Part shown: piece by piece, positions 26,821 to 55,131 of the stretch
Numbering within the stretch: the stretch's first letter is position 1
How the letters are laid out: each line of letters starts with the position of its first letter
Source: a virus
Direction: 5' to 3' (one strand)
IMG/VR virus record: IMGVR_UViG_3300025668_000745
Coordinates: 20,644 to 84,643 of that record
Length of the DNA: 64,000 nt
Made by a program: the position numbers and the translations under genes
Notes under the pieces: model-generated
Database searches by the model: none
What the model was told of the DNA's origin: nothing
The model's input: only the letters and a program-made list of their open reading frames with translations

Positions 26821-26821
26821 A

Positions 26822-39865: not shown

Positions 39866-40984
39866 ATGAGCGAAGATTTAAAATGGTCAAATTATGACTT
39901 TACTAAAATACCTTTTGACGACATTGTCTCTGTGGGGCAACGTACTCTGCTGTATCGTGATATATTTACTGTATCATGGTTACTTGGACGTTTCTGCAAC
40001 TACAAGTGTTCCTACTGTTGGCCCTATGCCCGAAGTGACCGTAAAGATCACAGACCTACCGAGCTCTGCTTGCGAACAGTGGATGAAATTAAACGTCAAG
40101 CCAGAGACAACGGCTTCAATTCTTTCCACTTCTCCTTGTCAGGAGGAGAGCCTACTTTCCATCCTGGATACTTGGACATACTAAAGCACTTAGCTGACGA
40201 TGTAGATAATACTAACTATACAAGTGTACACATGACATCAAACTGTAGTCGCAACATGCGTTGGTTTGAACAGTATGTAGAAGCAGTTAAACCATTTCAT
40301 AGAGCAAGCATTACAGCAAGCCTGCACACAGAACACTTAAACACAAAGGAGAAGATGCAGGACTTTGCAGATAAACTAATCCTGTGTCAAGAACACGATG
40401 TACAAGTTACAATTAATATGGTCATGGTGCCGGACTGGTTTGAACGTGATTGGGAAAATGCACTGTTCTTTCACGAACAAGGTATCAACGTTACTCTTAA
40501 ACCACAATCAGACCCTACTGCTTCTAAAGTTGTTGACGGATACAAACCGGAAGACCTAAAACGTTTACATAACGGTATGCCGCAACGTGCATATACAGAA
40601 AGCAAACGTAAGTGGGAAGGTAGACCAAAACCTGCCTTTCAAATTCCACAAGGAGCAGACGGGAAACTTGATGCAAGTGTGCCTTGGCATTTTCAAGTAG
40701 AGTTTAAAGACTCAACAGGTAAAAAATGGTTCATGGATCAAGCAGAAAGATTTAATGCATTTAATTTTAATAAGTTTGAAGGATGGCGATGTAATGCAGG
40801 GTATCAAGGAATTATTATACGTGAACCGGACGGTTCAGTAAAGCGTAGTTATAGCTGTCATGATACGCCTCTTGGTAACATAGAAACAGGATTTAAGTTA
40901 TTTGACAAACCTATGCCATGTATAACTAAATCCTGTGTAAGTAGTGCAGATAGTAAAATACCTAAGACTAAAATTATTTCTTAA
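39866..40984 (+). CDS. Radical SAM protein, classical type, with atypical base composition, 372 aa
   Basis: C44, C48 and C51 (CNYKCSYC) are followed by LSGGEPTFHPGYL. The C-terminus has WRCNAGYQGI, SYSCHD and PCITKSC, consistent with an auxiliary Fe-S site. It has its own promoter and no leader. The first 300 bases are visibly richer in G and C than the surrounding DNA, with different codon choice (for example CTG, GCC, TTC), suggesting separate ancestry or selection for strong expression. Its stop overlaps the convergent nitroreductase gene by 11 bp. Confidence 0.85.
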   Translation: MSEDLKWSNYDFTKIPFDDIVSVGQRTLLYRDIFTVSWLLGRFCNYKCSYCWPYARSDRKDHRPTELCLRTVDEIKRQARDNGFNSFHFSLSGGEPTFHPGYLDILKHLADDVDNTNYTSVHMTSNCSRNMRWFEQYVEAVKPFHRASITASLHTEHLNTKEKMQDFADKLILCQEHDVQVTINMVMVPDWFERDWENALFFHEQGINVTLKPQSDPTASKVVDGYKPEDLKRLHNGMPQRAYTESKRKWEGRPKPAFQIPQGADGKLDASVPWHFQVEFKDSTGKKWFMDQAERFNAFNFNKFEGWRCNAGYQGIIIREPDGSVKRSYSCHDTPLGNIETGFKLFDKPMPCITKSCVSSADSKIPKTKIIS

Positions 40985-41606
40985 ATACTACCGGAATTTC
41001 TTCTTTTATACGTCTTTCAATCTTTACATTTTCTGTATGATGCTCACGTCTTTGTCTTGTGCTATCTTTAAATCCGATACCCATTAAAAGTATACTTGGA
41101 TTATCAAACCCTAAAATTTCTTCAACTTCTGATTTATCGTAACATGCACAACACCCTGTTTGATAACCTAACATTGTAGCAATAACATTTAAATAGCCAG
41201 CAGCAATACCTACAGCCATTTCTCTATCACGTCTTAACATGTTGTTATCTGATTCGTCATTATTTTTAAACTTTTTGTTATATTGTGCAGACATATCATT
41301 TGCTTCAAATGCAACAAGTAAGTTTGCAAGTGTTTGTGGATTTGTACATTCTACTCTATCTCCTGTTTCAGGATCAGCATATCCTAATCCTAATGAATTG
41401 GCATGTACTTGTTCTATAATATTTCTGTCTGTAATAAAGTGGGCTTTGTAAAACGCAAAGTTTTGTTTGCTCGGACAGTTAGTAACAGCGTGTACTAAAA
41501 CATCAATATCCTCTTCTGGAATACTTTTACTAAGATCCCAATTTCGTTGTGTATGTTGGCTTTTGATTACTGATTTTTTAATCTCGTTGCGAAAGTCTAA
41601 TTCCAT
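40974..41606 (-). CDS. Nitroreductase-family FMN protein, 210 aa
   Basis: A good site (aaggag) precedes the ATG on the minus strand. The layout fits the nitroreductase fold: NCPSKQNFAFYKAHFI near residues 43-58 (FMN-binding Ser/Asn), GIAAGYLNVIATMLGYQTGC near 133-152, and ILLMGIGFKD near 171. Family members transfer hydride from NAD(P)H through FMN. In this setting it could reduce a pathway intermediate or a partner flavoprotein. It is one of only two minus-strand genes inside the accessory region. Confidence 0.72.
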   Translation of the reverse strand: MELDFRNEIKKSVIKSQHTQRNWDLSKSIPEEDIDVLVHAVTNCPSKQNFAFYKAHFITDRNIIEQVHANSLGLGYADPETGDRVECTNPQTLANLLVAFEANDMSAQYNKKFKNNDESDNNMLRRDREMAVGIAAGYLNVIATMLGYQTGCCACYDKSEVEEILGFDNPSILLMGIGFKDSTRQRREHHTENVKIERRIKEEIPVVFKK

Positions 41607-41626
41607 AATGAATACTCCTTGTACTA

Positions 41627-41635
41627 TTATTTATT
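41627..41635 (-). promoter_or_regulatory. Late-promoter-like box AATAAATAA upstream of the nitroreductase
   Basis: On the minus strand the box AATAAATAA lies about 20 bases before the ATG at 41606, in the 84-bp divergent spacer. It resembles the ATAAATAC boxes elsewhere. The plus-strand gene at 41691 has an aaagga ribosome site in the same spacer but no promoter I can call confidently. Confidence 0.4.
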
Positions 41636-41690
41636 CAAATATGTATTATAACTAAACCGATATGCATAATTACTTATAAAGGAAGCAAAA

Positions 41691-42443
41691 ATGGATTCAA
41701 AAACACATGATAAGGACGGTAATCCTTTAAACTTGATGCCTAAGGCAAACAGATTGCATCAAGCAAGTTATTACGATACATGGTTAACTACTCCTGAAAG
41801 ATATGAACCAACTCCTGAAGATATAAAATGCGAACTGCAACTTCAAGCCTTGGGTAATTTTGAGCAGTTGTGTTTCAACTTTAATTACGAAAAGTTTACA
41901 AAAGAACTCGAAAATTTTGAGTTTGTGCCTTACTTGCGTAGAGAAGGTATCACCAATGACCGAGACGGATTAATGTTAGTTGGATTAGAGGGCGATAAGT
42001 CAAACGATAGTTTAAGTAGACCCGAAGCTATTGCTCGTGCTGGCAGACACTTAGAAGAAACAGATTTTACATTTCCTACTGATGCATATATTGGACTAAC
42101 TTCTCTACACGAAGTCTTAGATTATTGGGGTGGATTAGGACGCACAATGATTGTTAAAAGTAACAAGGGAGGCTGGTTCCCACCACATCGAGATGCTCCA
42201 CAACTTACAAGAGATTGTTTTAGAGTTATTGTATTTCTTGGCCCTGCAACAGATTTTGATGCATATGAATGGTACTTGGGAGACGAAAGAAGAATAATTA
42301 TTCCTAATACTGCATACTATGTAGACACACGTAAAGTACACAGAACACATGCTTGGGCAGACGATAGTTATCACTTAGTATTAAATGTTCCAAAAACTTG
42401 GCCTAATGTACTTAAACTTATGAGCAAATTAAGACACTATTGA
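41691..42443 (+). CDS. 2OG-Fe(II) oxygenase-like protein, 250 aa
   Basis: An aaaggaagc site precedes the ATG. The double-stranded beta-helix motif is visible: FPPHRDAP gives H166 and D168, and RKVHRTHAW (H217 or H220) gives the distal His. YHLVLNV closes the barrel. This resembles the aspartyl/asparaginyl hydroxylase-like group. Such enzymes hydroxylate amino acids, lipids or small molecules using 2-oxoglutarate and O2. One base separates it from the next oxygenase gene. Confidence 0.72.
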   Translation: MDSKTHDKDGNPLNLMPKANRLHQASYYDTWLTTPERYEPTPEDIKCELQLQALGNFEQLCFNFNYEKFTKELENFEFVPYLRREGITNDRDGLMLVGLEGDKSNDSLSRPEAIARAGRHLEETDFTFPTDAYIGLTSLHEVLDYWGGLGRTMIVKSNKGGWFPPHRDAPQLTRDCFRVIVFLGPATDFDAYEWYLGDERRIIIPNTAYYVDTRKVHRTHAWADDSYHLVLNVPKTWPNVLKLMSKLRHY

Positions 42444-42444
42444 T

Positions 42445-43152
42445 ATGCGTTCTGAAAGCCAAATCAACTTATTAAAATCACATCATTCAGATCCGTTTTC
42501 ATTATCTAATTTCCTTACATCGCAAGAGGTTGAGGATCTATTAGATTACTATTTTAATAATCAAGACAATGTTATTAAAAAAACAACAGGACCGAGTGTA
42601 CTAAAAATAAAAGATAACTTATTAGATAATATAATAAGCAGACTAAAATTACAAATAGGTGACTTTGATATAAGGTATGCACATTTCTTTGATGTAACCG
42701 GTCCGCATGTAATTCACAATGATGACGAATTTGATTATCCAGAATCGTATAAAGCATTTACAATACCGCTTAAAATATATGGTAATAGTGATGATGTAAA
42801 ATTAGTTATATATGATCAATATTACTACGGAGGCCCTGCTAAATTTTTTAATAATCAAGACACAAGTACTTGGAATGTGCATTATAATCCACCGCTTACT
42901 GATTATACTAATGTTGAAAATACAAATAACAGTGGTATATCAAAAACTGAAAAGGAAGAATATCTTACACACTTGGAAGATAAATGGTTGGAAGGGTTAA
43001 GCATCAAAAGTATGTTAGATTGGAAAATACAAAATGTTTTATGTTTTGACAGTTTACAATTACATTCGTCTACAGATTTTAATGCTAAAGGCATTGAACG
43101 AAAAATAGGATTAAGTATATTTACAGTTTTATCTGATCAAGCAAAAGACTAA
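42445..43152 (+). CDS. 2OG-Fe(II) oxygenase-like protein, 235 aa
   Basis: HVIHNDDEF supplies H91 and D93, FDSLQLHSS supplies H207, and the following ERKIGLSIFTV has the candidate 2OG-binding Arg219. A long loop (about 120-190) sits between the strands. Its 3' end overlaps the convergent radical SAM gene by 32 bp. Substrate unknown; the preceding oxygenase is a distant relative. Confidence 0.65.
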   Translation: MRSESQINLLKSHHSDPFSLSNFLTSQEVEDLLDYYFNNQDNVIKKTTGPSVLKIKDNLLDNIISRLKLQIGDFDIRYAHFFDVTGPHVIHNDDEFDYPESYKAFTIPLKIYGNSDDVKLVIYDQYYYGGPAKFFNNQDTSTWNVHYNPPLTDYTNVENTNNSGISKTEKEEYLTHLEDKWLEGLSIKSMLDWKIQNVLCFDSLQLHSSTDFNAKGIERKIGLSIFTVLSDQAKD

Positions 43153-44338
43153 CATCTAATTTTTTATTTTTGTAGTCGTTTTCTTTTATTAAGAATTTTT
43201 CTATATCGTTTGATGTATAAGATCCTGTTCCTATAAGACTCCTTAAACTTTTAAGCCAAATACATACATTATTCTTACATGCTTCTGCATGTTCGCCTTT
43301 AGAATTTAATACTATTTGTATTGCTTCGTCGACATATTTTCTAAATTCAATAGGTAAATTTGCTGGACTAAGAACTTTGGGAGTAGTCACCCAGTTATTA
43401 ATAAATCCAAATGGCACATCGACTTCAGTTAAATGATCGTAAACATATTGTATATATAATGGCAAGTGTTTAATACTAAACACATTCGGAGTCATTGCTA
43501 ATATTATATAACTTACTTTTTGGTTAATAAAAAAATTAAAATTCTTATCAAAGACATCCCAGTCAAGATGAAATCTAATATTTTCTGCTACACTACCCAT
43601 AGCTTCATTAGATAATCCAAATGACCATAGCCAATTTGTTCTATCGTTTTTAATTAGTTTTTCAATCTTATGTAATAGTTTGTCACTTGCGCCGCAGTTA
43701 GTAACTATGTGTATTCTAAACTTTCTATCTGCAAGTTTTTCTTCTAATGTATGCAAAAATTTAAAAAATTCTACACTTGCTAATGGCTCGCCCCCTAAGA
43801 TACGCAAATCTAAATATTTAGATCTATCTTTAGTTACAACGTCTAACCAATCTAAAAGAACATCAATATCTTTATTATTATGTTTTAAAAACTTTGCTTC
43901 TCCTCGTTCTTCAGCAATAATACTACTAAACGCTGAACTGCAATATAAACAACTTTGAGTACATGTATTATCAAATGTAAGACCAACAACTCTTAAATAA
44001 TCTAATTCAGGATTGGCTTTAATTTTACTATGTATTCTTGTATTACTTTTTACTTTGCGTTTAGATGTTCCTGAGTTCTTTTCAGCCATCCAGCATTCAT
44101 TACAAGCTGAGTGTTTTTCTTCATTTAAAAAGGCTAATTTTCGATCATGGTGTTCGGAGTTATTAGTAAAAAAGTCCAAAGTTAAATCTTTAGGAAACGA
44201 AACATCTTTGGAATAACAGCACCAAGATATAGATCGATCTCTAAGATTGATATCTACCTCTTCCCAAGGAAGTGAACAAAACATATCGTACTTGTGTATT
44301 GATTTTTGAGCAATATAGTCAGAGCTGGTCATAAACAT
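43121..44338 (-). CDS. Radical SAM protein, N-terminal twitch type, on the minus strand, 405 aa
   Basis: MFCSLPWEEVDI, SWCCYS (C40/C41) and ACNECWMAEK form the N-terminal domain. The core has C126, C130 and C133 (CTQSCLYC), LGGEPLA and HIVTNCG. It is the only radical SAM gene here in this orientation. The first ATG (44338) or the ATG two codons later may be the start; no ribosome site is visible for either. Only 25 bp separate it from the divergent aminotransferase gene. Confidence 0.83.
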   Translation of the reverse strand: MFMTSSDYIAQKSIHKYDMFCSLPWEEVDINLRDRSISWCCYSKDVSFPKDLTLDFFTNNSEHHDRKLAFLNEEKHSACNECWMAEKNSGTSKRKVKSNTRIHSKIKANPELDYLRVVGLTFDNTCTQSCLYCSSAFSSIIAEERGEAKFLKHNNKDIDVLLDWLDVVTKDRSKYLDLRILGGEPLASVEFFKFLHTLEEKLADRKFRIHIVTNCGASDKLLHKIEKLIKNDRTNWLWSFGLSNEAMGSVAENIRFHLDWDVFDKNFNFFINQKVSYIILAMTPNVFSIKHLPLYIQYVYDHLTEVDVPFGFINNWVTTPKVLSPANLPIEFRKYVDEAIQIVLNSKGEHAEACKNNVCIWLKSLRSLIGTGSYTSNDIEKFLIKENDYKNKKLDVSLLLDQIKL

Positions 44339-44349
44339 ATTTAGTACAC

Positions 44350-44358
44350 CATAAATAC
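44350..44358 (+). promoter_or_regulatory. Late-promoter-like box CATAAATAC of the second operon
   Basis: The box ends 5 bases before the ATG at 44364. With T4-type late promoters, transcription starts about 6 bases after the TATAAATA core, so the message would be leaderless. An in-frame TAA (44352-44354) prevents an upstream extension. It is the only promoter-like sequence seen before the 14-gene operon. Confidence 0.5.
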
Positions 44359-44363
44359 CCTAT

Positions 44364-45197
44364 ATGCACGAAACTGAATTAAGAAACATTATAAAGAATC
44401 CTTGGGTACAATGTCCACAAGTTAATAGCGTACAACACTTATTGAAGTCTGTCGAAGTTATTAATTTTGTAAGAGGCAGTGGTGAAGCATCTGCTCGGTT
44501 GGATTATTTAGAAACTTTATACAGAAAATGGGTAAGTGATATAATAGATTTACGTGATTTTAAGTATTGTTATTTTGTTAACGGTGTTACTGATGCAATT
44601 AATCAATGGGTAGCAACCGAAACAAGGACCTGGCAATATTTAAAAGGCGATTACGAATATGCTAAAATGATCGGCGGCGACGGATATTGTGTAGATGACA
44701 TTAATCCTGAACAGTTGTTATATATAAGCAACCCGGAATGTTCTACTGGCGACTTCATTAAACTTAAAGATATACCTAATCCTATAATATTAGATTGTGC
44801 ATATATTGGCAGTACCTTAAAACAACAAATGTCAGTGCCTAATACAACAGAACAAATTTGGTTTAGTTTTTCAAAAGGTTGGGGATTAGTTGGTCAACGT
44901 GCAGGGTTAGTTTTTACAAAACATCCTCATAAAAGTTTACATGTAATGAAACAAGTTGAAGCATGGAATTATACAAGTGTAGAAACAGCAATAGCTATTG
45001 TAGAAAACTATGATATAGACACTGTAGCAAGCGCATACAAGCCCGTACAGCAGCAGTTGTGTGAGAAGTATAACTTAGAGCCCAGTGATTGTTTTTTCAT
45101 TGCTAAGAGTACTGATAAGCGTTTTAAGATACGGCGTAGAAAAGAAGACATTGCTCGATTAGATTTGAGTTCTTTAATGGAGCACAGTAATGCATAA
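44364..45197 (+). CDS. Short fold-type-I PLP aminotransferase-like protein, 277 aa
   Basis: The pyridoxal-phosphate site is readable: YFVNGVTDAINQW near residues 70-82, LDCAYIGS with D144 and Y147, and WFSFSKGWGLVGQRAGLVF with the Schiff-base Lys171 and following Arg. Aspartate-aminotransferase relatives usually have 380-420 residues, so the small domain is much reduced. It probably transfers an amino group to a pathway intermediate. It overlaps the next gene by 8 bp and has no visible ribosome site. Confidence 0.7.
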   Translation: MHETELRNIIKNPWVQCPQVNSVQHLLKSVEVINFVRGSGEASARLDYLETLYRKWVSDIIDLRDFKYCYFVNGVTDAINQWVATETRTWQYLKGDYEYAKMIGGDGYCVDDINPEQLLYISNPECSTGDFIKLKDIPNPIILDCAYIGSTLKQQMSVPNTTEQIWFSFSKGWGLVGQRAGLVFTKHPHKSLHVMKQVEAWNYTSVETAIAIVENYDIDTVASAYKPVQQQLCEKYNLEPSDCFFIAKSTDKRFKIRRRKEDIARLDLSSLMEHSNA

Positions 45198-45828
45198 AAT
45201 TGTAGGGTTGTCGTTTAGTTATGCTGATAACAGTATGCAAAATAGAGGAATGTCTTTATTAGGAAAAGTTATTCCCTTTCATAAAACTTATACTTTAGCA
45301 GATTTTGATATACCCTTAGTAAAAACAAATAAACCAGACGGCGCAAGTCCTCAAGGTGTTAAGGATATGGTAGCAGCATTAGAAGAAGCAGATGCGATAG
45401 TTTTTGGAATATCAGAAATGATAGCTTATCCGTGCGCTTCATTTAAAAATTTTTGTGAATGGTTAGTTATAAATATTAACAACAATGATGATTTGACTAA
45501 AAGTTATTGTATCAGTCATAAGCCGTTAGTAACAACTACATTTACTCCAGGACCACATGCTGGAGATAGACATTGGGAAGTTTCCAACCAACTACTTTTC
45601 CAATTGAATTGTAACATTGAAAAAAATTATGTTTTTAGAGACGCTTGGGAAAACTTGTTGCCTAATAACATAGATTATATACAACAAGAAGCAAAAGAAA
45701 TGTTAGAGTTACTTTCAAAAAAATATAATGATAGCGGCATTGTTGTGCATGATAGAGTGCGCACAATGGGGAAATGGATGAATCAATACGAAGAATGGGA
45801 TAAAGAATGGACTTCTTCAGATCTGTAA
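45190..45828 (+). CDS. NAD(P)H-dependent FMN reductase-like flavoprotein, 212 aa
   Basis: A ggag site precedes the ATG. The flavodoxin-like start KIVGLSFSYADNSMQNRGMS, then FDIPLV and EADAIVFGISEMI and FKNFCEWL, matches NADPH-dependent FMN reductase proteins. It ends in MNQYEEWDKEW, a tail shared with its paralogue at 52686. It could supply reduced flavin or electrons to the radical SAM enzymes, which need a low-potential donor; that is inference. Confidence 0.68.
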   Translation: MHKIVGLSFSYADNSMQNRGMSLLGKVIPFHKTYTLADFDIPLVKTNKPDGASPQGVKDMVAALEEADAIVFGISEMIAYPCASFKNFCEWLVININNNDDLTKSYCISHKPLVTTTFTPGPHAGDRHWEVSNQLLFQLNCNIEKNYVFRDAWENLLPNNIDYIQQEAKEMLELLSKKYNDSGIVVHDRVRTMGKWMNQYEEWDKEWTSSDL

Positions 45829-46403
45829 AATTTAAAACTAATATAGACTTTTTCTATGATTGTGCAGAATATATTTCTGAAGATTCTACCTTTAACATAG
45901 ACGATAGTGTTTATATGTGTTGGACTGACGATAATAAAAAATTTATTCCAATACACAATTTTATAGATAAACTAAAAAATAAATTAAATTGTGAAATTAG
46001 TAGAAGTTGTTATACAGTTCAAAGAAGCAAAAAATCTAATTTGCCAATTCATATAGATAAAGATGATTCTATTATAGACAGATCTATTCATGGGAAAATA
46101 TATAGTTTAATTATACCTATTAAAGGTAGTGGCGTTACTAAGTTTTATAATTTGCACTCTAAAGATAACGGCCCTAACAGTATGGATATACACGAAAGAT
46201 ACAATCTATATATAGGAAATGATAATATCGAACAACAAGTGCAGATGCATAGTGCTGTAACAATTGAGCAACCTACAATTTTAAATATTAGCCAACCTCA
46301 TAGTGTTACTGTAGTTACTGCTCCGAGAATTACCTACCATTTAAAATTATTACAAGTTTCAGAACCTATAGATAAAATAGCGGAGATATTAAGTGAAATA
46401 TAA
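45807..46403 (+). CDS. 2OG-Fe(II) oxygenase-like protein, 198 aa
   Basis: NLPIHIDKD gives H82 and D84, ISQPHSV gives H165, and APRITYHLKL contains the candidate 2OG-binding Arg174 and closes the barrel. The size suits a minimal double-stranded beta-helix enzyme. The start lies 22 bp inside the flavoprotein gene. Substrate unknown. Confidence 0.65.
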   Translation: MDFFRSVKFKTNIDFFYDCAEYISEDSTFNIDDSVYMCWTDDNKKFIPIHNFIDKLKNKLNCEISRSCYTVQRSKKSNLPIHIDKDDSIIDRSIHGKIYSLIIPIKGSGVTKFYNLHSKDNGPNSMDIHERYNLYIGNDNIEQQVQMHSAVTIEQPTILNISQPHSVTVVTAPRITYHLKLLQVSEPIDKIAEILSEI

Positions 46404-47901
46404 CGCATTATTGTTAGCAGCAGTTCCAAGACAAAAATCATATTATGCCTCTAAAAACTTTGGTATACATCGTGCTGCTACAGAATTTCGAAATAATAAT
46501 ATAGATACTCAAGTTGTTCATTATTTTAATAGATTTAGTGATAATGAATTAGACAAAATGATAGATAAGTTTTGTAATGACCAAACATCAGTTGTTGGGT
46601 TCAATACAATGTTCTGGGAAAACTATGATCCTGTCGAAAAGCAGCATGTGTTAAAAAAAGCAAAATATATTTGTAATGTTATAAAACAAAAGTATCCCAA
46701 TACAAAACTTATTGCCGGCGGCCCCAGTTGTAGAATATTTTTAAAAGAAGAATTTAACAATTTGATAGATGCAATTTTTGAAGGATTCAGTGAAAACGAC
46801 TTTATTCCGTACATACAAAATAAAATAATTGTACCTTCTAAAACTTACTATAACATTGACGTATATAACAATATACACGGATCGTTTAATTTTACTAACA
46901 GCAATACAATATACCAAAAAAATGATTTTCTCATGCCGTCAGAAACTCCAACATTAGAAGTTGGACGAGGATGTATTTTTAAGTGTAAATTTTGTGCATT
47001 TGCACTTAATGGTAAGAAAAAGTTAGACTATATAAAAGATCCAAAAGTATTAGAAGAAGAATTATTGTATAATTATGAAAATTTTGGATTTACTAATTAC
47101 ATATTAAGTGACGATACATTTAATGATAGTACATATAAAATAGAATTATTACATAAAGTGTTTACTAATCTACCTTTTGATATAAAGTTTAGTTCTTATT
47201 TAAGATTAGATTTACTAAATGCACATCGAGAACAAATACCGTTATTAAAAGAGATGGGACTAATAGGTGCGTTTTTTGGTATAGAAAGTTTTGATAAGAA
47301 AGCCAGCAGCTTAATTGGAAAGGGTATGGATCCTGACATTGCAAAACAAATGTTATTAGATTTAAAAAATACTCACTGGGGCAATCGAATAAAAATTGGT
47401 GTTGGATTGATAACTGGATTACCGTATGAAACATACGAATCGCATGATCGAACTATGGAGTGGATTTTAGATGAAAGTAATACAGTTGACCAAGTTGTGC
47501 CTTTTCCGTTAGGTGTTACTAATCCTAATAATGCAAAACCGCAACCTTGGGAAAGTGAATTTCAAATTAATGCAGAAAAATATGGGTTCAGTTGGCCAAA
47601 CAATGATAGTATACGATGGCATAATAGTATTGGACCAGTAAAAACTTTAGACGAAGCTGAAAGACTATACGAACTTTATTCAGAATGTGTATCTAAAACA
47701 GCTCGATGGAAGCAAGGAGGATTTAATTTACTCAAAGCATATCCGTTAGTAAGTTCTCAAAAAAATGCACCAACCATAGATCAACTTCTTGATATGAATC
47801 GATATGCCTATACTAAGTACATTAAATTAATTGAACAACAGCCTGAAATAGAATTCAATTATGTAAATTCTTACAAAAAGGAAATTTTAAATGCTTTATA
47901 A
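46393..47901 (+). CDS. Radical SAM protein with B12-binding-like N-terminal domain, 502 aa
   Basis: The start is GTG 46393, behind cggag, with an 11-bp overlap. Residues 1-140 look like a cobalamin-binding-type Rossmann domain (ALLLAAVP, SVVGFNTM, TKLIAGGPSC), but I see no DxHxxG, so cobalamin binding is uncertain. The radical SAM core has C194, C198 and C201 (CIFKCKFC) and Elp3-like strands (FFGIESFDKKASSLIGKGM, GLITGLPYET). Related enzymes perform radical methylations and rearrangements. It is unlike the other fourteen radical SAM proteins here. Confidence 0.83.
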   Translation: MKYNALLLAAVPRQKSYYASKNFGIHRAATEFRNNNIDTQVVHYFNRFSDNELDKMIDKFCNDQTSVVGFNTMFWENYDPVEKQHVLKKAKYICNVIKQKYPNTKLIAGGPSCRIFLKEEFNNLIDAIFEGFSENDFIPYIQNKIIVPSKTYYNIDVYNNIHGSFNFTNSNTIYQKNDFLMPSETPTLEVGRGCIFKCKFCAFALNGKKKLDYIKDPKVLEEELLYNYENFGFTNYILSDDTFNDSTYKIELLHKVFTNLPFDIKFSSYLRLDLLNAHREQIPLLKEMGLIGAFFGIESFDKKASSLIGKGMDPDIAKQMLLDLKNTHWGNRIKIGVGLITGLPYETYESHDRTMEWILDESNTVDQVVPFPLGVTNPNNAKPQPWESEFQINAEKYGFSWPNNDSIRWHNSIGPVKTLDEAERLYELYSECVSKTARWKQGGFNLLKAYPLVSSQKNAPTIDQLLDMNRYAYTKYIKLIEQQPEIEFNYVNSYKKEILNAL

Positions 47902-48298
47902 ACTGATAGAAAACCTGCCAGTAGAATATACTTTTGATAAAGAAGAAAGAATTATTTTATGCGGTGTTCCAGGACCATTTACACCAGGATGCTCTTCGAA
48001 ACACTTGCCTGGTTTTGCAAATAATTTACAAGAATTAAAAGATAAAGGTATTACTAAGGTTGTGTTTATTGCAGTTAGTAATGCATATGTTATGAACGCT
48101 TGGAATGAAAAGTTTGGACATGACGAGATTGATTGTATTGGAGATCCGTACGGAGAATACATTGAAGAAATATCACAAACAATGTGGAACCCTATGTTAG
48201 CAAGAGCATCTAATAGATTTGCTGTATTAATCGAGAATGGTAAAATTATAAAACAGTTTAACGACCCATTTGTTGAAGGTGTACTAAATGACCTTTAA
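47891..48298 (+). CDS. Prx5-type peroxiredoxin, 135 aa
   Basis: CGVPGPFTPGCSSKHLPGF has the Prx5 signature PxxxTxxC, with peroxidatic Cys34 and Thr31. KVVFIAVSNAYVMNAWNEKF and a shortened C-terminal part follow. The usual length is about 160, so this is trimmed. It reduces peroxides with thiols. It lies between a radical SAM gene and oxygenase genes, so protecting Fe-S enzymes from peroxide is a plausible role. Confidence 0.8.
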   Translation: MLYKLIENLPVEYTFDKEERIILCGVPGPFTPGCSSKHLPGFANNLQELKDKGITKVVFIAVSNAYVMNAWNEKFGHDEIDCIGDPYGEYIEEISQTMWNPMLARASNRFAVLIENGKIIKQFNDPFVEGVLNDL

Positions 48299-49139
48299 AA
48301 CTACACACAATAATTACAGATTAGTTGATAATAATGATGTGCCTTTATATCATTATGACATTGATGATTACACAGCAAGAGAAAATGAATCTCACCAAGA
48401 ACACAAAAATTTAAACTATAAGTCGGCGTATGACGGATATAAAGGCGTAGTATGGACACCGTTAGATCTTCCGTTTTTAGATATAGATTTAGATCACCTT
48501 TGGAACGTTTGGCAAGATGTACATCAATATAAAAAAGAAGGATTGGCACAGCCTTGGTTTGACGAACGACCTGACGATATGAATAGTTCAAGGCATAGTG
48601 TATATACAGATCATGATTATAGAGCGCTAATTTGTTTTAAGAATACAGATTACTATTCTACTAATGTAAAAGGAGAATGGTATCAAGTTATTAGAGATGA
48701 ATTTCCACAAGTAGTTGACTTTTGTGAAAATCATTTACCTTTTGACAATTTAAGATTTGTAGCTTTTGCTGGTAGAGACGAACATGGAGTAGGACCTCAT
48801 TATGATGAAGATTACAAAAATAGACATAGACTTTTTGGACAAGAACCGAGTCAAATACGAATTCGTTGGAGTAATGTAACTACTCCAGAAACTGAACATT
48901 TATACTTTACTAACGATCATGCAAAAACAAGATTGTACCCTATGTTACCTAATGATACAAATGCAATGGCATGGGACGGGCAAGTACACGAACATGGTGC
49001 TGACAAAGGATATCATCCTACTGAAAGAATGATACTCATGCCTATGGGTACATTAAACATTAAAAAATGGCATGACTTGTTAGACAGAAGTATAGAAAAA
49101 TATAAAGATTATGTTATTACTGTGGATCATTTCAAATGA
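48288..49139 (+). CDS. 2OG-Fe(II) oxygenase-like protein, 283 aa
   Basis: GVGPHYDEDY gives H171 and D173. AWDGQVHEHGAD gives H234 or H236, and TERMILMPMG gives candidate Arg247. The layout resembles aspartyl/asparaginyl hydroxylase-like enzymes. The start is 11 bp inside the peroxiredoxin gene. The N-terminal 140 residues are acidic and aromatic, with no recognised domain. Confidence 0.65.
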   Translation: MTFKTTHNNYRLVDNNDVPLYHYDIDDYTARENESHQEHKNLNYKSAYDGYKGVVWTPLDLPFLDIDLDHLWNVWQDVHQYKKEGLAQPWFDERPDDMNSSRHSVYTDHDYRALICFKNTDYYSTNVKGEWYQVIRDEFPQVVDFCENHLPFDNLRFVAFAGRDEHGVGPHYDEDYKNRHRLFGQEPSQIRIRWSNVTTPETEHLYFTNDHAKTRLYPMLPNDTNAMAWDGQVHEHGADKGYHPTERMILMPMGTLNIKKWHDLLDRSIEKYKDYVITVDHFK

Positions 49140-50059
49140 TTATGAAAGGAGCAAACCTATCTACATTATTTCCTTCTGAAGCAAGTGCAGCAATAGCACA
49201 AGACGGTTATTTAGTTTTACAAAATACTGGCGCTTCACCTGAGGAGTTTGCAGAATGGTTTACAGATTTTGCGTATACACTAAGTCCTGATATATGGTGC
49301 AGTGATAAATCTCATAGTAGTCTATTTTGGAGAGTAACTAACCAAAATATTGATGAAAGAACACAAGGATTGTTTTCAAGCGATGATGTAGATTGGCATA
49401 CTGACTTAGCACCGATTATCGATTCACAAGAAGTTATTGGATTATACGGAAAGACAATAACATTTGATACAGAAACTTGGGTATGTTCAGCAGTTGAATA
49501 TTGGAACAGATTAGATGAAGAAACAAAATCTATGTATAAAGAACTTGTTGTAGAATTGTATCATGCCAGTATAAACAAAGATAAAGAATTATTTGAAACT
49601 AAGTGGCAAGTAGACTGGGACAAAGAATACCCACAAGAAATTATAGACGGTCTGAGAAAAAATAGACAACTAAGTCAAATACAAAATTGTACAAACATAA
49701 GTTTAGACAATGCAAAAAAATTTAATAAACATCGAGGACTTGTTGCAAAATATAATTTTGTTAGTAATCATCCGTTAGGTGCAGATAGTATATTTTTCCA
49801 CCCGCATTTGATTGTAGACTTATATAAAGAAAATCAGTCTATAATACAAGGAAAAGAAATATTTCAAACGATATATAGAGACTTAATAGAAAGCAATAAG
49901 TACACATATAAGCATAGATGGAAAGAAGGTGATATACTGTTAATAGATCAAATTAACACATTACACCGAAGAACAAAAGTTTACGAAGATAAGCCTCGTG
50001 AATTGTTAAGATGTGCAGGATGGTATAAGAACAGGAAACATTATAATTATGTCCTATGA
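49136..50059 (+). CDS. TauD/TfdA-family dioxygenase, 307 aa
   Basis: VDWHTDLAPI gives the iron ligands H88 and D90, and DQINTLHRRT gives H277. RELLRCAGWY supplies the 2OG-binding Arg. The N-terminal AIAQDGYLVLQNTG and the long lid match the TauD/clavaminate-synthase-like family. It probably hydroxylates a small molecule or carrier-bound amino acid. The 4-bp overlap on the 5' side indicates coupling. Confidence 0.78.
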   Translation: MIMKGANLSTLFPSEASAAIAQDGYLVLQNTGASPEEFAEWFTDFAYTLSPDIWCSDKSHSSLFWRVTNQNIDERTQGLFSSDDVDWHTDLAPIIDSQEVIGLYGKTITFDTETWVCSAVEYWNRLDEETKSMYKELVVELYHASINKDKELFETKWQVDWDKEYPQEIIDGLRKNRQLSQIQNCTNISLDNAKKFNKHRGLVAKYNFVSNHPLGADSIFFHPHLIVDLYKENQSIIQGKEIFQTIYRDLIESNKYTYKHRWKEGDILLIDQINTLHRRTKVYEDKPRELLRCAGWYKNRKHYNYVL

Positions 50060-50810
50060 TTTAATTTATGTAAACGGTGCATCTTATGAAGCAGGAGCTG
50101 GTTTGTGTCAGCATGAATATTTAACAGATGTAGAATTACAAAAATATCCTGAATGGTTAACTAATTTTCCAAAAATTATGACAGAAGAAAAAATGAAAGA
50201 ATTGTGGAATCTGTATGATAACGGATTAGAAGAAAGAGAAAAGCAGTGTGCCTGGCCTGCACATTTAAGTAGGATGACTGGTATTCCTGTACAAAATGAA
50301 GCTGTAGCAGGAGCCTCAGCTTCAACAACTGCAATTAAAACACTTGAAACAAATATGAAACAACACAAAGGCAAAAAAGTTTTGTATATAATTGGAGTGT
50401 GTCCTAATCAAGGAATTTGGTGGCCAGGTTCTGAAAGAGGAAATGATAGTATTCTTTTAAATCCGTACAGAAAATTTCCTAATACATTTGAAAGATTTAT
50501 TGCAGAACACATACGTGATAATGCTTCTCGAGAACAAGTAGATCATTTATATAACATTTCTTTCAAAGGACTGTATCTTTATCTAAAGGAAAGAAAAAGA
50601 GATTGTTATTTTGTTCACGCTGATTTTGGATTAGCAGACGGATCTTCAGGAAGAGCAAGAAGACCAATAACTGGATACTTAGACGAAATAGCACCAAACA
50701 TTGATCCTACAAAAGATAAAGTACTTACGGTATGCGGACATTATACAGAAGATGTCCATATCGAACTTGCTGAAAGAATAGCAAAGAAAATTGAAAGTGG
50801 CGAAATATGA
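50049..50810 (+). CDS. SGNH-hydrolase-like protein with NGAS block I, 253 aa
   Basis: I chose ATG 50049 (11-bp overlap) because DLIYVNGASYEAGAG aligns with the N-termini of the other SGNH proteins here. Ser12 is kept, but GD is replaced by GA. AVAGASAST is block II/III-like and VCGHYTEDVHIELAERI carries the candidate His. The missing Asp may weaken activity. It is the only SGNH gene of the second operon. Confidence 0.6.
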   Translation: MSYDLIYVNGASYEAGAGLCQHEYLTDVELQKYPEWLTNFPKIMTEEKMKELWNLYDNGLEEREKQCAWPAHLSRMTGIPVQNEAVAGASASTTAIKTLETNMKQHKGKKVLYIIGVCPNQGIWWPGSERGNDSILLNPYRKFPNTFERFIAEHIRDNASREQVDHLYNISFKGLYLYLKERKRDCYFVHADFGLADGSSGRARRPITGYLDEIAPNIDPTKDKVLTVCGHYTEDVHIELAERIAKKIESGEI

Positions 50811-51418
50811 AAAAACAAAACTTACCTACAATAGCAAATTTAAATCTAAATATTGATTTAGAAAGGTTGCGAAGTGCAACTGATAAATTAGCAGAAGAAT
50901 TTGTAAATGTACGTGCAGCTAATCCTGGATTGTGCATGAATCATGAAGAATTAGTTAAAGATGTTTACGATAACTTTGAACAAATTAATTTAACTACACC
51001 CAGTGAAGTCTTGCCACATACAGCAAGTATTAAAGAACGACTACGGCGTAGGGAAGAACATTTATATAATGTACCAACTGAAGATTATATTGGAAGTTAC
51101 TTTGAAGAAATAGTAACACAATGTAAAGCACCAGCAAGTCGTATACGTATTACTAAACTTGCTCCTGGCAAAACTATACCTTTCCACGTAGACTACGATG
51201 TAAGCTACGCTGTACGCTGTATAGTACCTGTATACGGTGGTAGTAATGTTGTAAACTTATTTAAACGTGATGGAAAACTTGAAGCGTATAATCTCGAAGA
51301 CGGTACTGCTAATTTCCTCAACATAGGATATCCACATGCTGTTGTGAACATGAGCGATAAGCCTCGTATAGCACTAATGTTTAGTTTGGACGGTACTGAT
51401 GACATCACAAGTTTATAA
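50807..51418 (+). CDS. 2OG-Fe(II) oxygenase-like (aspartyl hydroxylase-type) protein, 203 aa
   Basis: TIPFHVDYD gives H127 and D129, NIGYPHAVVN gives H177, and DKPRIALMFSL gives Arg187. This set matches the aspartyl/asparaginyl beta-hydroxylase-like fold well. The N-terminal 90 residues are helical. It overlaps the previous stop by 4 bp and the next gene by 20 bp. Confidence 0.72.
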   Translation: MKKQNLPTIANLNLNIDLERLRSATDKLAEEFVNVRAANPGLCMNHEELVKDVYDNFEQINLTTPSEVLPHTASIKERLRRREEHLYNVPTEDYIGSYFEEIVTQCKAPASRIRITKLAPGKTIPFHVDYDVSYAVRCIVPVYGGSNVVNLFKRDGKLEAYNLEDGTANFLNIGYPHAVVNMSDKPRIALMFSLDGTDDITSL

Positions 51419-52187
51419 TTATACAGATACAGAATTAAAAGACCTTGCAACTAAAATACAAACGCAAGGCCTGTCAATACTTCATGAACAACAGTTTACT
51501 GAATCACAGATTGTAGAATTCTTTAAACGCATAGGCGAGTGCGAAGCACCTGGCTTGTTTATGAATCCTAAAGATCACCCAGAGTTATTCTTAGTGTCAG
51601 ACAGAAAAGATGAACACGGTAACAAGACAGGAATGTTTGGCGGTGGCGAACTTGGGTGGCATTCAAACGGTAATAGCAGACATCTTATTGATAAGATTCT
51701 TATTGGACTATACTGCGTCAAAGGTGATCCAAATACAACTCTTAGCGTATGTAATACAAGCGATCCGTTTTATGACTTGTCAGAAGAGGATCAAGCATAC
51801 TGGAAAAGCATTACAATTAGATTAAAGTTTCAAAACGATACAATGTATCACTTAGACGATGACGATCCGGAACTTGAGTTTATGAGTAAGAACAAGGGTA
51901 GTATTAGACCGTTAGTTGGAACACACCCGCATACAGGCAAAGACTATTTCTACTTTCCTTATCACTTTATTATTAAAGCATGGCAAGGTAAAACTCCAGT
52001 AGACCATAACGAAATAATTGAACGCTTAAAACCTATTATATTTAAAAGCCGCTATCAAACACATCACGTATTTGCCGAGGGCGATCTATTAATGATGGAT
52101 CAGTTTACTACATTGCACAGACGTACACCTGTTATGGGCGATAGGTTATTGTGGAGATTAGCAAGTGACTACTCAAACATGGCATAG
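51399..52187 (+). CDS. TauD/TfdA-family protein with an HxN metal site, 262 aa
   Basis: The fold is readable: GELGWHSNGNSRH, LLMMDQFTTLHRRTP with H240, and DRLLWRLASDY with Arg. The usual HxD is H88-S-N90 here, so the carboxylate iron ligand is replaced by Asn. In halogenases of this superfamily the Asp is Gly or Ala; Asn could weaken iron binding or open a site. Whether it is active is unknown. It is clearly related to the gene at 49136. Confidence 0.7.
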   Translation: MTSQVYNYTDTELKDLATKIQTQGLSILHEQQFTESQIVEFFKRIGECEAPGLFMNPKDHPELFLVSDRKDEHGNKTGMFGGGELGWHSNGNSRHLIDKILIGLYCVKGDPNTTLSVCNTSDPFYDLSEEDQAYWKSITIRLKFQNDTMYHLDDDDPELEFMSKNKGSIRPLVGTHPHTGKDYFYFPYHFIIKAWQGKTPVDHNEIIERLKPIIFKSRYQTHHVFAEGDLLMMDQFTTLHRRTPVMGDRLLWRLASDYSNMA

Positions 52188-52689
52188 AATTTTTGACGTT
52201 GATTACAATATTGATAAAGTATTAGTTTGGGCAAGAAAACTACAATTAAGTAAGCCAGGTATTCCTATGCAAAACAAAACTTCTCTTAATACTGTAGATC
52301 TTGGTGAAGACCAGTATTACTGGGAAGGAGAGTTTCCTAAACAAGAGTTTGATATATTCAATGACATTATTTGTTTAGACGGAAAATTTAGAGGAATCGA
52401 AACAAGTTGCTCTTTATGGGAGTATCAGTCTCATACTACGCTGCTGCCACACATACACGATACTGAAGAATTAATCGGAGGAGTACTAATTGTTCCGTTA
52501 ATTGGAAATTTTAAAACAAGTATATATCAAGGAGATAAAGAAATCGATAGTGTTGAATATTCTCCAGGTAAGTTATTTTTTGTAAAAGGAAAAGAATTTT
52601 TGCACGGCGGCGAAGCTATAGATGGTTATAGATTAGCTGCATTATTGTACATAAAAAAGGATGTAAACTTGGATGATTATATAATATGA
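52165..52689 (+). CDS. Cupin-type beta-barrel protein, 174 aa
   Basis: The start is GTG 52165 with ggag 8 bases upstream. LLPHIHDTEELIGG resembles cupin motif 1, with H96, H98 and E101 or E102. YSPGKLFFVKGKEFLHGG resembles motif 2 with the last His. It may be a metal-dependent oxygenase or isomerase; a degenerate 2OG oxygenase is an alternative. It overlaps its neighbours by 23 and 4 bp. Confidence 0.6.
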   Translation: MTTQTWHRIFDVDYNIDKVLVWARKLQLSKPGIPMQNKTSLNTVDLGEDQYYWEGEFPKQEFDIFNDIICLDGKFRGIETSCSLWEYQSHTTLLPHIHDTEELIGGVLIVPLIGNFKTSIYQGDKEIDSVEYSPGKLFFVKGKEFLHGGEAIDGYRLAALLYIKKDVNLDDYII

Positions 52690-53324
52690 ATGTTGTAGGT
52701 ATAAGTTTTAGTCACGCTGAAAATAGTTTACAGACACGGGGATTGTATCTTATGCAAGATATATTGCCTATTAATACAGTATGTGACATGACTAACTATA
52801 ATATTCCAATGTGCAGTTCGAATAAAAGTGACGGCGTTGTTCCGCAATCGGTTGACAATTTGATAAGCGTAATGGAAAGTGCTGATGTTTTAATTTTTGC
52901 TATAAGCGAAGCAACTGGACATTACTGTGCTGGATTTAAAAATGTAATGGACTGGTTAGTAGTAAAGGCAAAATTTAATGCACGCCTTGGAACTGATTAT
53001 GCTATTACAGATACACCCATTTTTGTAGTAACATTTACTCCTGCTAAGAATGAAAATGTTGGAAATAGACATTTTGCAATGACTGTAGATCTACTGGAAA
53101 AGCTGGGAGCAAAGGTACAAAAGACGTCTGTAATACCAGATTCTTGGAAAACTGTAATTCCGGGACATTCCGCCGCAGTAAAACCAGTCTGTCGTGTGAT
53201 TAGTGATTTTCTAAAGTTATATACGCCGAATAGTATAACGACACGTAAAAAAGATGACACCGATAGTTTACATTGGTTAACCAACTACAACGAATGGGAT
53301 ATGAAATGGAAGTCAATAGATTAA
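52686..53324 (+). CDS. NAD(P)H-dependent FMN reductase-like flavoprotein, 212 aa
   Basis: It is a paralogue of 45190-45828 of identical length: NVVGISFSHAENSLQTRGL, YNIPMC, SADVLIFAISEAT and FKNVMDWLVV. The final TNYNEWDMKW matches the paralogue's tail. Two copies in one operon suggest two electron-transfer partners or a heterodimer. Confidence 0.68.
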   Translation: MNVVGISFSHAENSLQTRGLYLMQDILPINTVCDMTNYNIPMCSSNKSDGVVPQSVDNLISVMESADVLIFAISEATGHYCAGFKNVMDWLVVKAKFNARLGTDYAITDTPIFVVTFTPAKNENVGNRHFAMTVDLLEKLGAKVQKTSVIPDSWKTVIPGHSAAVKPVCRVISDFLKLYTPNSITTRKKDDTDSLHWLTNYNEWDMKWKSID

Positions 53325-53968
53325 ACGGAATACCGTGGCCTCGATGGCATACTACGCCGCCAAAAGAACTTATCAAGGTTCCGTTGAAAGAAGAATATGC
53401 ATTACACACTATGGACTATTTAGATACTCCTGAAGCAAGATGTATTTTTGAAAAACAAGCTCAAATTATAATTGATAATAATATACAGGGTATAGTTGAT
53501 ATAGGTTGTCGCATTGGCATAGTAAACGATATACTACAAGAATTAAATTATAAAAATTATACATATATGGGGTTTGATACTTCAAGTGAGCCTATTACGT
53601 TTGCAAATAATAAGTATAAGGATTATAAAAATATAGAATACAGACAGGCAAGTATGTATTCAAAAAAAGATATTACTGTATCTTTTGATGTAGATTGTGT
53701 AATATGGAGCGGAGTATTATTATATGCACCCGACACACATTTAGAGTTATTTGACGATTTGACGTATAATTTTTATAATAGTAAACATGCTATTATTCAA
53801 GAACCATGTAGTAATCAAGATTCAAACAAGTTTCTTGACAATATTGAATTAAACACTATTGAAAAAGATTTACATTTATATGAAAACAAATATAATAATT
53901 ATAAAGAATGTATAGTTAATGCTAATATCTTTTCAGGACGTAGGAAAATAGTACACATATGGAAATAA
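53306..53968 (+). CDS. Class I SAM-dependent methyltransferase, 220 aa
   Basis: ATG 53306 is preferred; ATG 53294 is possible. GIVDIGCRIGIVNDIL is motif I near residue 57, with the acidic end of strand 2 in YMGFDTSSEPITFAN. VDCVIWSGVLLY is the motif IV strand. The N-terminus (NGIPWPRWHTTPP) is unusual and may bind the acceptor. It probably methylates a pathway product. It overlaps the flavoprotein gene by 19 bp. Confidence 0.72.
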   Translation: MEVNRLNGIPWPRWHTTPPKELIKVPLKEEYALHTMDYLDTPEARCIFEKQAQIIIDNNIQGIVDIGCRIGIVNDILQELNYKNYTYMGFDTSSEPITFANNKYKDYKNIEYRQASMYSKKDITVSFDVDCVIWSGVLLYAPDTHLELFDDLTYNFYNSKHAIIQEPCSNQDSNKFLDNIELNTIEKDLHLYENKYNNYKECIVNANIFSGRRKIVHIWK

Positions 53969-54513
53969 GAATAATACCTTACATAGTTGACGGCGAAGAA
54001 AATAAAAAATTATCTAACAACGATTTAAATATTTGCCGTATTGCTATAGATAATATGAAAACACAATCAAAAAAAGATAGACTTTTTAATAATTACAATC
54101 AATATTTAAAATTAGATACTATGGCTATGTATTGCGTTGCTGTTGATAAAAATAAACCTGTAATGTGTACAGGTGCTCAGCATATAAGCAAACATTGTTG
54201 TAGACTGTTTAGTCGTTATTATTTGTTTGATGATTATCGAACATCTCATGTCAGTAATTTATACGATAAGGTTGATAATTTTCAAACAGACTTATACATG
54301 CAACATGCATTAAAAAACAAGTATAAATTATTCTTTTGGAGTCGAGACAAAGGAACAGGATTTTTTAAAAAAATTAAAAACGCAAGACCTGATATATTTA
54401 AAAATTGGACAGTGTATGATACAATGATAGAATTATTATGGAAGGATAATTTTCAGGGTATTATCTATACAGGTGATATAACGTATATTGACGAGTTAAC
54501 GATTAACAAATAA
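53959..54513 (+). CDS. Unknown protein, possibly acetyltransferase-like, 184 aa
   Basis: It is the last gene of the second operon. It is mixed alpha/beta with MAMYCVAVDKNKPVMCTG and RYYLFDDYRTSH (about residues 51-96), which vaguely recall the central strands of GNAT acyltransferases; the acetyl-CoA loop is not evident, so the assignment is weak. Its 3' end overlaps the convergent desaturase gene by 18 bp. Confidence 0.45.
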   Translation: MEIRIIPYIVDGEENKKLSNNDLNICRIAIDNMKTQSKKDRLFNNYNQYLKLDTMAMYCVAVDKNKPVMCTGAQHISKHCCRLFSRYYLFDDYRTSHVSNLYDKVDNFQTDLYMQHALKNKYKLFFWSRDKGTGFFKKIKNARPDIFKNWTVYDTMIELLWKDNFQGIIYTGDITYIDELTINK

Positions 54514-55131
54514 CTTTTCAGCAATCCATCCACCAGTGTCCCACTTGTGTAATCTTACTTTGCGAAAGTTGTTGTGATGCTGTCTATGAAATCCTTCTCC
54601 AGCAATAAAGAAGTTAAGCCACGGAACATCTGCTCCGCCTTCTACTTTATGTCCTACTGTATTAAGTAAACCAAATCCTATTTTAGCAAATACAAATGGC
54701 GTTGCGCAAAAAGCAATCCAAAACAATGGACTAATTATAAAGCTCGCTACATTTACTATGATTAGTATTTTTAACCAATGCTTATGACAAAATACTAATC
54801 TTGGATTAGCATATAAGTCACGTGCATATTTCATTGGTATTTTAGGTATACTCCAAGTAGTAAGCAAAACTTTCCAATAGCCTACGTGATTAGCAGCATG
54901 TGGATCATGTTCTGTATCACTGTGAGCATGATGCATTCTGTGACTGGCAATCCAACCAATAGGAGTACGAATACATGCTATCATTAGCATTGCTAAGCCG
55001 ATAGTCTCAAACCATACTGGTACATTAAATTGTTTGTGGCAATAGTATCGATGTAATAGTATACTGGCACCCCAATGACTGATCACTTGGCTCCATAAGA
55101 TGCCTATAACTAATGCGATTAAAATTTCCAT
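54496..55131 (-). CDS. Minimal membrane fatty-acid (acyl) desaturase, 211 aa
   Basis: The three histidine boxes are present: HRYYCH (H27-H32), HRMHH (H64-H68) and HRQHH (H182-H186), plus NTVGH at 157-161. Hydrophobic stretches near 1-20, 41-55 and 123-155 fit a membrane di-iron desaturase of the stearoyl-CoA type. It is shorter than typical bacterial members (about 270-300 residues). It may alter host membrane lipids or a pathway acyl chain. A taggag site and an AATAAATAC box precede it. Confidence 0.85.
   Translation of the reverse strand: MEILIALVIGILWSQVISHWGASILLHRYYCHKQFNVPVWFETIGLAMLMIACIRTPIGWIASHRMHHAHSDTEHDPHAANHVGYWKVLLTTWSIPKIPMKYARDLYANPRLVFCHKHWLKILIIVNVASFIISPLFWIAFCATPFVFAKIGFGLLNTVGHKVEGGADVPWLNFFIAGEGFHRQHHNNFRKVRLHKWDTGGWIAEKLFVNR

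Follow-up and report, generated by a model that had tools for sequence, protein, structure and literature searches.

What would a virus do with fourteen consecutive genes for oxygenases, radical enzymes and group-transfer enzymes, and do they act together? The question is raised by a 64,000-nucleotide stretch of viral DNA (hereafter the window), which comprises bases 20644-84643 of the 84.6-kb IMG/VR virus record IMGVR_UViG_3300025668_000745. Within positions 44364-54513 of the window, 14 open reading frames (ORFs) lie on the plus strand and, as the initial annotation had described, show overlaps: all 13 gene-gene junctions do so, by 4-23 nt each. A minimal membrane di-iron protein of the acyl-CoA-desaturase type (DES; 54496-55131, minus strand) is encoded convergently to the last of them, g14, with an overlap of 18 nt. 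We conclude that the 14 genes together with DES almost certainly constitute one functional module, because gene order is retained between relatives and core families co-occur, which argues against a chance collection of unrelated genes.

Conservation of the module

In a close relative, L001, all 14 genes recur in unchanged order at 93-100% protein identity, and dN/dS values against it of 0-0.26 for every one of the 14 genes indicate purifying selection. The diverged contig L002 retains this order at 35-85% protein identity, lacking only the 'cupin' gene. Scanning IMG/VR with the aspartyl/asparaginyl-hydroxylase-family protein (AspH), the TauD-family protein TauD2 and FMN reductase yielded 88 contig groups, no two with an identical protein in common, that carry the core in reshuffled order. 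As determined with hidden Markov models restricted to aligned domains, AspH is present in 84 of the 88 groups (partly by selection), the fold-type-I pyridoxal phosphate (PLP) enzyme AT and TauD2 in 77 each, and DES and the methyltransferase MT in 73 each. FMN reductase follows in 47, the putative Fe(II)/2-oxoglutarate (2OG) oxygenase 2OGb in 38, a second 2OG-like family in 37, g14 and a GNAT family in 35 each, and peroxiredoxin (Prx) in 34. The upstream partners u0 and u1 occur in 62 and 22 groups, respectively, and the accessory genes 2OGa and SGNH in 3 and 2.

Since scans with three queries select for their own queries, a fair measure of co-localisation is provided by independent contigs fetched with AspH alone and extending at least 6 kb upstream (n=32). 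Within 8 kb of AspH, AT was found in 32/32, DES in 31/32, TauD2 in 25/32 and MT in 23/32. DES, the most constant partner, is the first gene of the operon in most relatives and lineages. Core gene order differs between lineages, suggesting that the genes have been repeatedly rearranged yet held together. The core thus consists of DES, AT, AspH, TauD2 and MT, five families that fall within about 10 kb in the window; core genes make up about half of the 14, and SGNH, 2OGa, the B12-type radical SAM protein and the 'cupin' are accessories. The interval 44364-54513, which had been taken as the whole unit, proved too narrow, as DES and the upstream genes at 39866-44338 belong to the same unit.

Two phage lineages carry the module

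Among 50,697 deposited phages, the module was detected only in Pelagibacter phage Mosig EXVC030M (MT647606; PMC7892664), which suggests that its parts do not spread singly. There, the block Mosig_00081-00072 forms one run beside annotated tail fibre genes and encodes AspH-like, DES, AT, FMN reductase, Prx, 2OG-like, TauD2, MT, GNAT and AspH proteins, of which AspH and DES share 75% and TauD2 64% identity with their window counterparts. Compared with the window, the Mosig block is shorter and reordered, and it is devoid of TauD1, the B12-type radical SAM protein, SGNH, 2OGa and the 'cupin'; a sugar aminotransferase and a carbamoyltransferase are encoded nearby. The novelty in phages suggested by the initial annotation is therefore to be qualified, as a compact version of the module was already deposited with this isolate, annotated singly, gene by gene, and with no pathway proposed. 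Plasmids, when searched, returned generic TauD matches only.

Whereas Mosig is a T4-like pelagimyophage, the window phage, a large uncultured marine virus of bacteria, is of the jumbo type. Its ATPase is 50% identical to that of jumbo phage PA5oct, and the ORF at 10342 shares 56% identity with Sinorhizobium phage Phosso and also matches Agrobacterium phage Atu_ph07. By these sequence comparisons PA5oct, Phosso and Atu_ph07 are its relatives, so that the 84.6-kb record probably covers only part of a larger genome. An assignment to the pelagimyophages, which had been assumed after the Mosig match, was ruled out by the marker proteins. Among the 88 groups, 26 carry window-type and 24 Mosig-type lineage markers, none carries both and 38 are unclassed; the module thus resides in two kinds of phage, jumbo-type phages and pelagimyophages, that share no lineage markers.

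The start codons of AT and of the divergent upstream radical SAM gene are separated by 25 nt (44339-44363), and the control region must therefore lie partly within coding sequence. Promoter and terminator scans of the window gave counts no higher than shuffled sequences, and the T4-type late promoter TATAAATA was not enriched in it. A capsid search (PF07068) of the record itself produced no match, an uninformative result, as the control genomes gave none either.

Bacterial islands and the link to the upstream operon

Homologues of the module are also found in bacterial metagenome-assembled genomes (MAGs), for which misbinning is possible, though the flanking genes are chromosomal. A Bacteriovoracaceae MAG encodes, on a 118-kb contig that also holds AroC, AroB, EPSP synthase and AcrB, the series DES-DES-AT, then TauD1 and four 'cupins', then AspH-TauD2-FMN-2OG-MT-g14, with identities to the window proteins of 56% (DES), 60% (TauD2), 63% (MT), 51% (AspH) and 40% (AT). 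In a second genome (G002), RecQ, ProRS and EF-Tu are encoded on the same 349-kb contig as three TauD2, two DES, AT, AspH, a B12-type radical SAM protein and many twitch radical SAM proteins. Of 291 sampled genomes of a Bdellovibrionota-related phylum, 13 have AT homologues, usually adjoining twitch radical SAM families and in several cases accompanied by family-2 glycosyltransferases. With further desaturases from these genomes as the root, the DES tree unites the module proteins in one clade, in which the bacterial lineages branch deep and form two paralogue groups. This topology fits a bacterial origin of the module, with the direction of transfer left unsure by several long branches.

The initial annotation had called the 14 genes a second operon; the first operon, which lies upstream, consists of radical SAM and glycosyltransferase genes. 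The bacterial islands carry homologues of both. Two proteins of the G002 island match the first-operon radical SAM proteins at 39866 and 36109 with 66% and 62% identity, respectively, and a further one matches the first operon's family-2-glycosyltransferase-like protein at 19985 with 37%; the same island holds the B12-type radical SAM protein, DES, AT, AspH and TauD2. The 'second operon' is accordingly half of a larger system, and, judged by these homologies, the 14 genes, DES and the upstream operon form a larger island that is found in bacteria as well. The notion of one oxidative pathway is well supported, as a conserved module rather than single acquisitions, and needs amending in its borders and in its independence from the first operon. 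By the initial annotation, a match to a host metabolic cluster with an established product would have counted against this notion. This was tested in part: bacterial clusters do match, and none with an established product was found.

Several further features of these regions were recorded. Mutual blastp sorts the tandem radical SAM genes at 24012-39830 of the window, about ten in number, into two or three paralogous families, to which the twitch-type protein at 43121-44338 is related. At 17761-19439, a pair of paralogous ORFs has DxD motifs and resembles family-8 glycosyltransferases on reading, without Pfam or PDB support. The G002 island (contig C34, 145000-205000; L222-L223, L258) lies, as if inserted, between EF-Tu at about 145 kb and an EF-G-like gene at about 208 kb; as this EF-Tu is the only one of the genome, its interpretation as a self-resistance copy was ruled out. 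Radical SAM/AT islands also occur in L251, L253-L255 and other contigs of Bdellovibrionota-related genomes, in some cases together with an FA_hydroxylase protein or family-2 glycosyltransferases. The assignment of a bacterial PP-loop protein as an N-acetyl-sugar amidotransferase was unsupported, with weak Asn-synthase/TilS matches only, and L251:8170-9243, amidinotransferase-like on reading, gave no Pfam match and was not used.

Enzymes of the module

The genes of the module and its upstream partners are as follows.

44364-45197, plus: AT, fold-type-I PLP enzyme of aminotransferase/lyase type, 277 aa, core (AlphaFold2/Foldseek, invariant residues)
45190-45828, plus: FMN reductase copy 1 (PF03358, 3.8e-8; 33% identity to copy 2)
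45807-46403, plus: 2OGa, putative Fe(II)/2OG oxygenase, accessory (motif reading HID...PH...R; no Pfam match)
46393-47901, plus: radical SAM protein related to B12-binding radical SAM families, accessory (PF04055, 1.1e-13)
47891-48298, plus: Prx5-type peroxiredoxin (PF08534, Redoxin, 1.4e-18; phrog_2281)
48288-49139, plus: 2OGb (g06), putative Fe(II)/2OG oxygenase (invariant H-x-D...H...R motif; no Pfam match)
49136-50059, plus: TauD1, TauD-family oxygenase with normal H-x-D (PF02668, 1.3e-22; WHTD in alignment)
50052-50810, plus: SGNH-like hydrolase, accessory (motif reading only; no Pfam match)
50807-51418, plus: AspH, aspartyl/asparaginyl-hydroxylase-family protein, core (PF05118, Asp_Arg_Hydrox, 4.7e-6)
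51399-52187, plus: TauD2, TauD-family protein, Asn replacing the metal-binding Asp, core (PF02668, 6.3e-21)
52165-52689, plus: 'cupin', double-stranded-beta-helix-like protein, accessory (alignment; no Pfam match)
52686-53324, plus: FMN reductase copy 2 (PF03358, 2e-9)
53306-53968, plus: MT, class-I methyltransferase, core (PF08242, 4.1e-6, below gathering score; PF08241 above gathering score)
53959-54513, plus: g14, GNAT-fold putative acetyltransferase (AlphaFold2 and Foldseek)
54496-55131, minus: DES, minimal acyl-CoA-desaturase-type membrane di-iron protein, core (PF00487, 3e-8)
43121-44338, minus: twitch-type radical SAM protein, divergent from AT (NCBIfam NF033640, 1.3e-47, just under cut-off; family adjoining AT homologues in Bdellovibrionota)
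42445-43152, plus: u1, putative Fe(II)/2OG oxygenase, upstream partner (motif reading)
41691-42443, plus: u0, AspH-related protein, upstream partner (28% identity to Mosig_00081, annotated Asp_Arg_Hydrox)
40974-41606, minus: nitroreductase-family protein, upstream partner (PF00881, 2.5e-8)
39866-40984, plus: rSAMc, radical SAM protein linking first and second operon (66% identity to a G002 island protein)

Pfam supports both FMN reductases, the radical SAM protein, Prx, both TauD proteins, AspH and MT; AT is supported by structure prediction and 2OGb by its invariant motif, while 2OGa, SGNH and the 'cupin' are labelled from motif reading only. AT gave no match in a Pfam search. Its AlphaFold2 model (mean predicted local distance difference test score, pLDDT, 94.1) matches HisC, the threonine-phosphate decarboxylase CobD, OvoB and C-S lyases in Foldseek with E values down to 1.8e-12, and the PLP lysine K171 as well as D144, R179 and R265 are invariant across 27 homologues. 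Fold and residues identify AT as a fold-type-I PLP enzyme, for which aminotransferase and lyase activity are indistinguishable. DES possesses the three His boxes and the extra His ligand of the acyl-CoA (stearoyl-CoA) desaturase family: its profile matches acyl-CoA desaturases (4zyo/4ymk) at 1.9e-14, and H27, H32, H64, H67, H68, H161, H182, H185 and H186 are invariant in 25 homologues.

The H-x-D...H triad and the 2OG-binding Arg are present, at the level of sequence, in AspH, 2OGb and TauD1. Invariant are H127, D129, H177 and R187 in 26 homologues of AspH, and H171-x-D173, H236 and R247 in 19 homologues of 2OGb. The best enzyme matches of the AspH profile are a beta-hydroxylase and L-proline cis-4-hydroxylase; at 203 aa, phage AspH has no evident membrane anchor. 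Most homologues of the 'cupin' retain H-x-D...H, whereas the window copy reads H-x-H in the alignment. The radical SAM protein at 46393-47901 contains the CxxxCxxC motif and matches the NCBIfam PhpK-type (9.8e-17) and rSAM_ladder_B12 (6.6e-15) families, both below cut-off; the DxHxxG motif was not seen in its N-terminal domain. The last gene, g14, initially listed as unknown, is predicted to adopt a GNAT-like fold (pLDDT 92.5); its top Foldseek matches are all GNAT proteins, with E values down to 5.9e-6, and a template-modelling score of about 0.5 suggests a remote member. Profile comparison gave no support for merging g14 and the Mosig GNAT protein into a single family, even though fold or motif places each among GNAT-type proteins. 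FMN reductase and methyltransferase form one continuous ORF in the jumbo-type relatives L153, L158, L021 and L155, and L171, L170 and L176 carry an MT-g14 fusion.

An unusual metal-site motif in TauD2

TauD2 departs from the canonical 2-His-1-carboxylate triad: Asn occupies the carboxylate position, and both His residues and the 2OG-binding Arg are retained. This H-x-N...H...R signature occurs in 141 of 147 phage and bacterial homologues, with Asp in four and Ala (H-x-A) in one. The TauD2 profile matches RdpA (4e-11), the isonitrile-forming enzyme ScoE (5.5e-9) and TauD (5.6e-7), all of which differ from it in having H-x-D, as the PDB alignment shows for RdpA. In halogenases of the same superfamily, Gly or Ala stands where the metal-binding Asp would be. 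Human AspH functions with two His only, according to the available part of PMC10947486. With these two precedents, an active but altered TauD2 site is plausible from its sequence, and the protein may still bind Fe and 2OG. A published account of an H-x-N TauD clade was not found in a search whose reach excluded most subscription literature and preprints. The fixed H-x-N motif of TauD2 is a natural, selected exception to the 2-His-1-carboxylate rule within the TauD family.

Proposed chemistry and alternatives

The best overall explanation, in which we place middling confidence, is a biosynthetic or tailoring module that installs an amino-acid/acyl group on a glycoconjugate. Oxidative tailoring of an amino-acid type is its somewhat firmer part and probably applies; a fibre or envelope glycoconjugate as target is proposed more tentatively. 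In such a pathway AT would add, remove or lyse at an amino-acid-type centre; AspH, TauD1, TauD2 and 2OGb would hydroxylate or desaturate; and DES would oxidise an acyl-type chain. Methyl groups could come from MT and the B12-type radical SAM protein and acetylation from the GNAT protein, and the FMN reductases and peroxiredoxin may supply reductant and remove peroxide for the oxygen-using enzymes. The modified group would then be placed on a glycoconjugate, most plausibly on virion tail fibres or the host envelope. This target is suggested by the location of the module in the fibre region and by glycosyltransferases in the partner operon and bacterial islands, and is favoured also by the sugar aminotransferase and carbamoyltransferase near the Mosig module. 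Several points weigh against the proposal. None of the enzymes matches, by sequence, a step of any characterised pathway, and the substrates are guesses; DES indicates an acyl chain, not a sugar or amino acid; the fibre region is weak evidence for the target, because many unrelated marine-phage genes also lie there; and a carrier protein, an adenylation enzyme or a dedicated transferase from product to fibre was not identified.

As DES implies an acyl part, a lipid-linked or free product, such as a lipoamino acid or natural-product-like small molecule acting in the infected cell or on competitors, is the main rival, if on balance an unlikely one. Natural-product clusters typically feature enzymes like AT, MT and GNAT along with Fe/2OG enzymes and B12-type radical SAM proteins, the combination of DES with AspH-family hydroxylases recalls ornithine-lipid modification, and free-living bacteria carry the island. 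Yet genes for a carrier, condensation, export or self-resistance were not seen, the EF-Tu beside the G002 island being a sole copy and no resistance duplicate, and phage AspH has no evident membrane anchor. Direct modification of side chains in a phage protein, for example hydroxylation, methylation or radical-SAM crosslinking of tail fibres, would dispense with a free building block. Protein hydroxylases do exist in the AspH and Fe/2OG families, twitch/SPASM radical SAM enzymes often modify peptides, and the module adjoins tail-fibre genes in pelagimyophages, but a fold-type-I PLP enzyme and an acyl-CoA-type desaturase at the core have no obvious protein substrate. Moreover, with all junctions overlapping, the operon has no room for a precursor-peptide ORF; the precursor gene beside its maturases that marks clusters for ribosomally synthesised and post-translationally modified peptides is absent from it, a remote precursor being possible. 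We regard this alternative as improbable.

Two further readings have very little in their favour. Thymine and cytosine hypermodification pathways include 2OG oxygenases, acetyltransferases, methyltransferases and PLP enzymes; modification of phage nucleic acid is nevertheless highly unlikely here, since it offers no role for DES, the module resides in the fibre region and not among DNA metabolism genes, and a base hydroxymethylase, a hydroxymethyldeoxyuridine kinase and a base glycosyltransferase were not seen in the operon. The view that unrelated auxiliary metabolic genes were acquired one by one in a hypervariable island draws on the hypervariability of the fibre-side island in pelagimyophages, as given in the available part of PMC7029224, on the shuffled gene order and on accessories that vary between lineages. 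It is contradicted by the near-complete co-occurrence of the core in independent contigs, by the conserved order in L001 and L002, by the presence of the module in two phage lineages and in bacteria, and by its occurrence in just one of the 50,697 deposited phages, and is scarcely credible.

The amino-acid/acyl glycoconjugate pathway thus remains our preferred reading. A bolder version, which we consider doubtful as a whole, is that the pathway is exchanged between predatory bacteria of the Bdellovibrionota type, SAR11 myophages and marine jumbo phages, that its product is an oxidised amino-acid/acyl glycoconjugate of a new class, with which cells are recognised or attacked, and that TauD2 has an altered, possibly non-hydroxylating iron site. 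Marine phages have mostly been described as bearing scattered single metabolic genes; the module is a biosynthetic island borne by phages, unusual in the range of its carriers and in one of its enzymes, and the cultured phage Mosig EXVC030M with its compact version is a testable target.

Comparison with known systems

In line with the initial annotation, we found no described pathway of this composition, most subscription literature, preprints and supplementary tables being outside the search. In ornithine-lipid modification, OlsC is an AspH-family protein, OlsE a member of the desaturase superfamily and OlsG a methyltransferase, and the module likewise combines an AspH-type hydroxylase with a membrane di-iron enzyme and a methyltransferase. 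In contrast to the module, this system has no counterpart of AT and the TauD enzymes; an OlsB/OlsA-type acyltransferase pair was not identified in the module, where g14 has a GNAT fold and no search was aimed at OlsA. HTVC023P-type pelagiphages, as presented in the available part of PMC9599517, resemble the module in co-locating 2OG oxygenases in marine phages, but are podoviruses, and the partner genes of their 2OG-Fe(II) oxygenases encode ferrochelatases, not AT, DES, MT or FMN reductase.

The available part of PMC7029224 describes AspH as core to all pelagimyophages, together with a host recognition cluster that, like the region of the module, is a hypervariable fibre island with glycosyltransferases and auxiliary metabolic genes. 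That part does not describe the enzyme module and mentions a stearoyl-CoA desaturase for a freshwater group only; the window shares the fibre-region position and belongs to another lineage, and its module is therefore not a member of that cluster. The Bdellovibrionota-related islands (in G001, G002 and other genomes) carry homologues of both window operons on chromosomal contigs at about 20-66% identity, and differ from the window in being cellular, in an extra PP-loop protein and in duplicated DES, TauD2 and 'cupin' genes.

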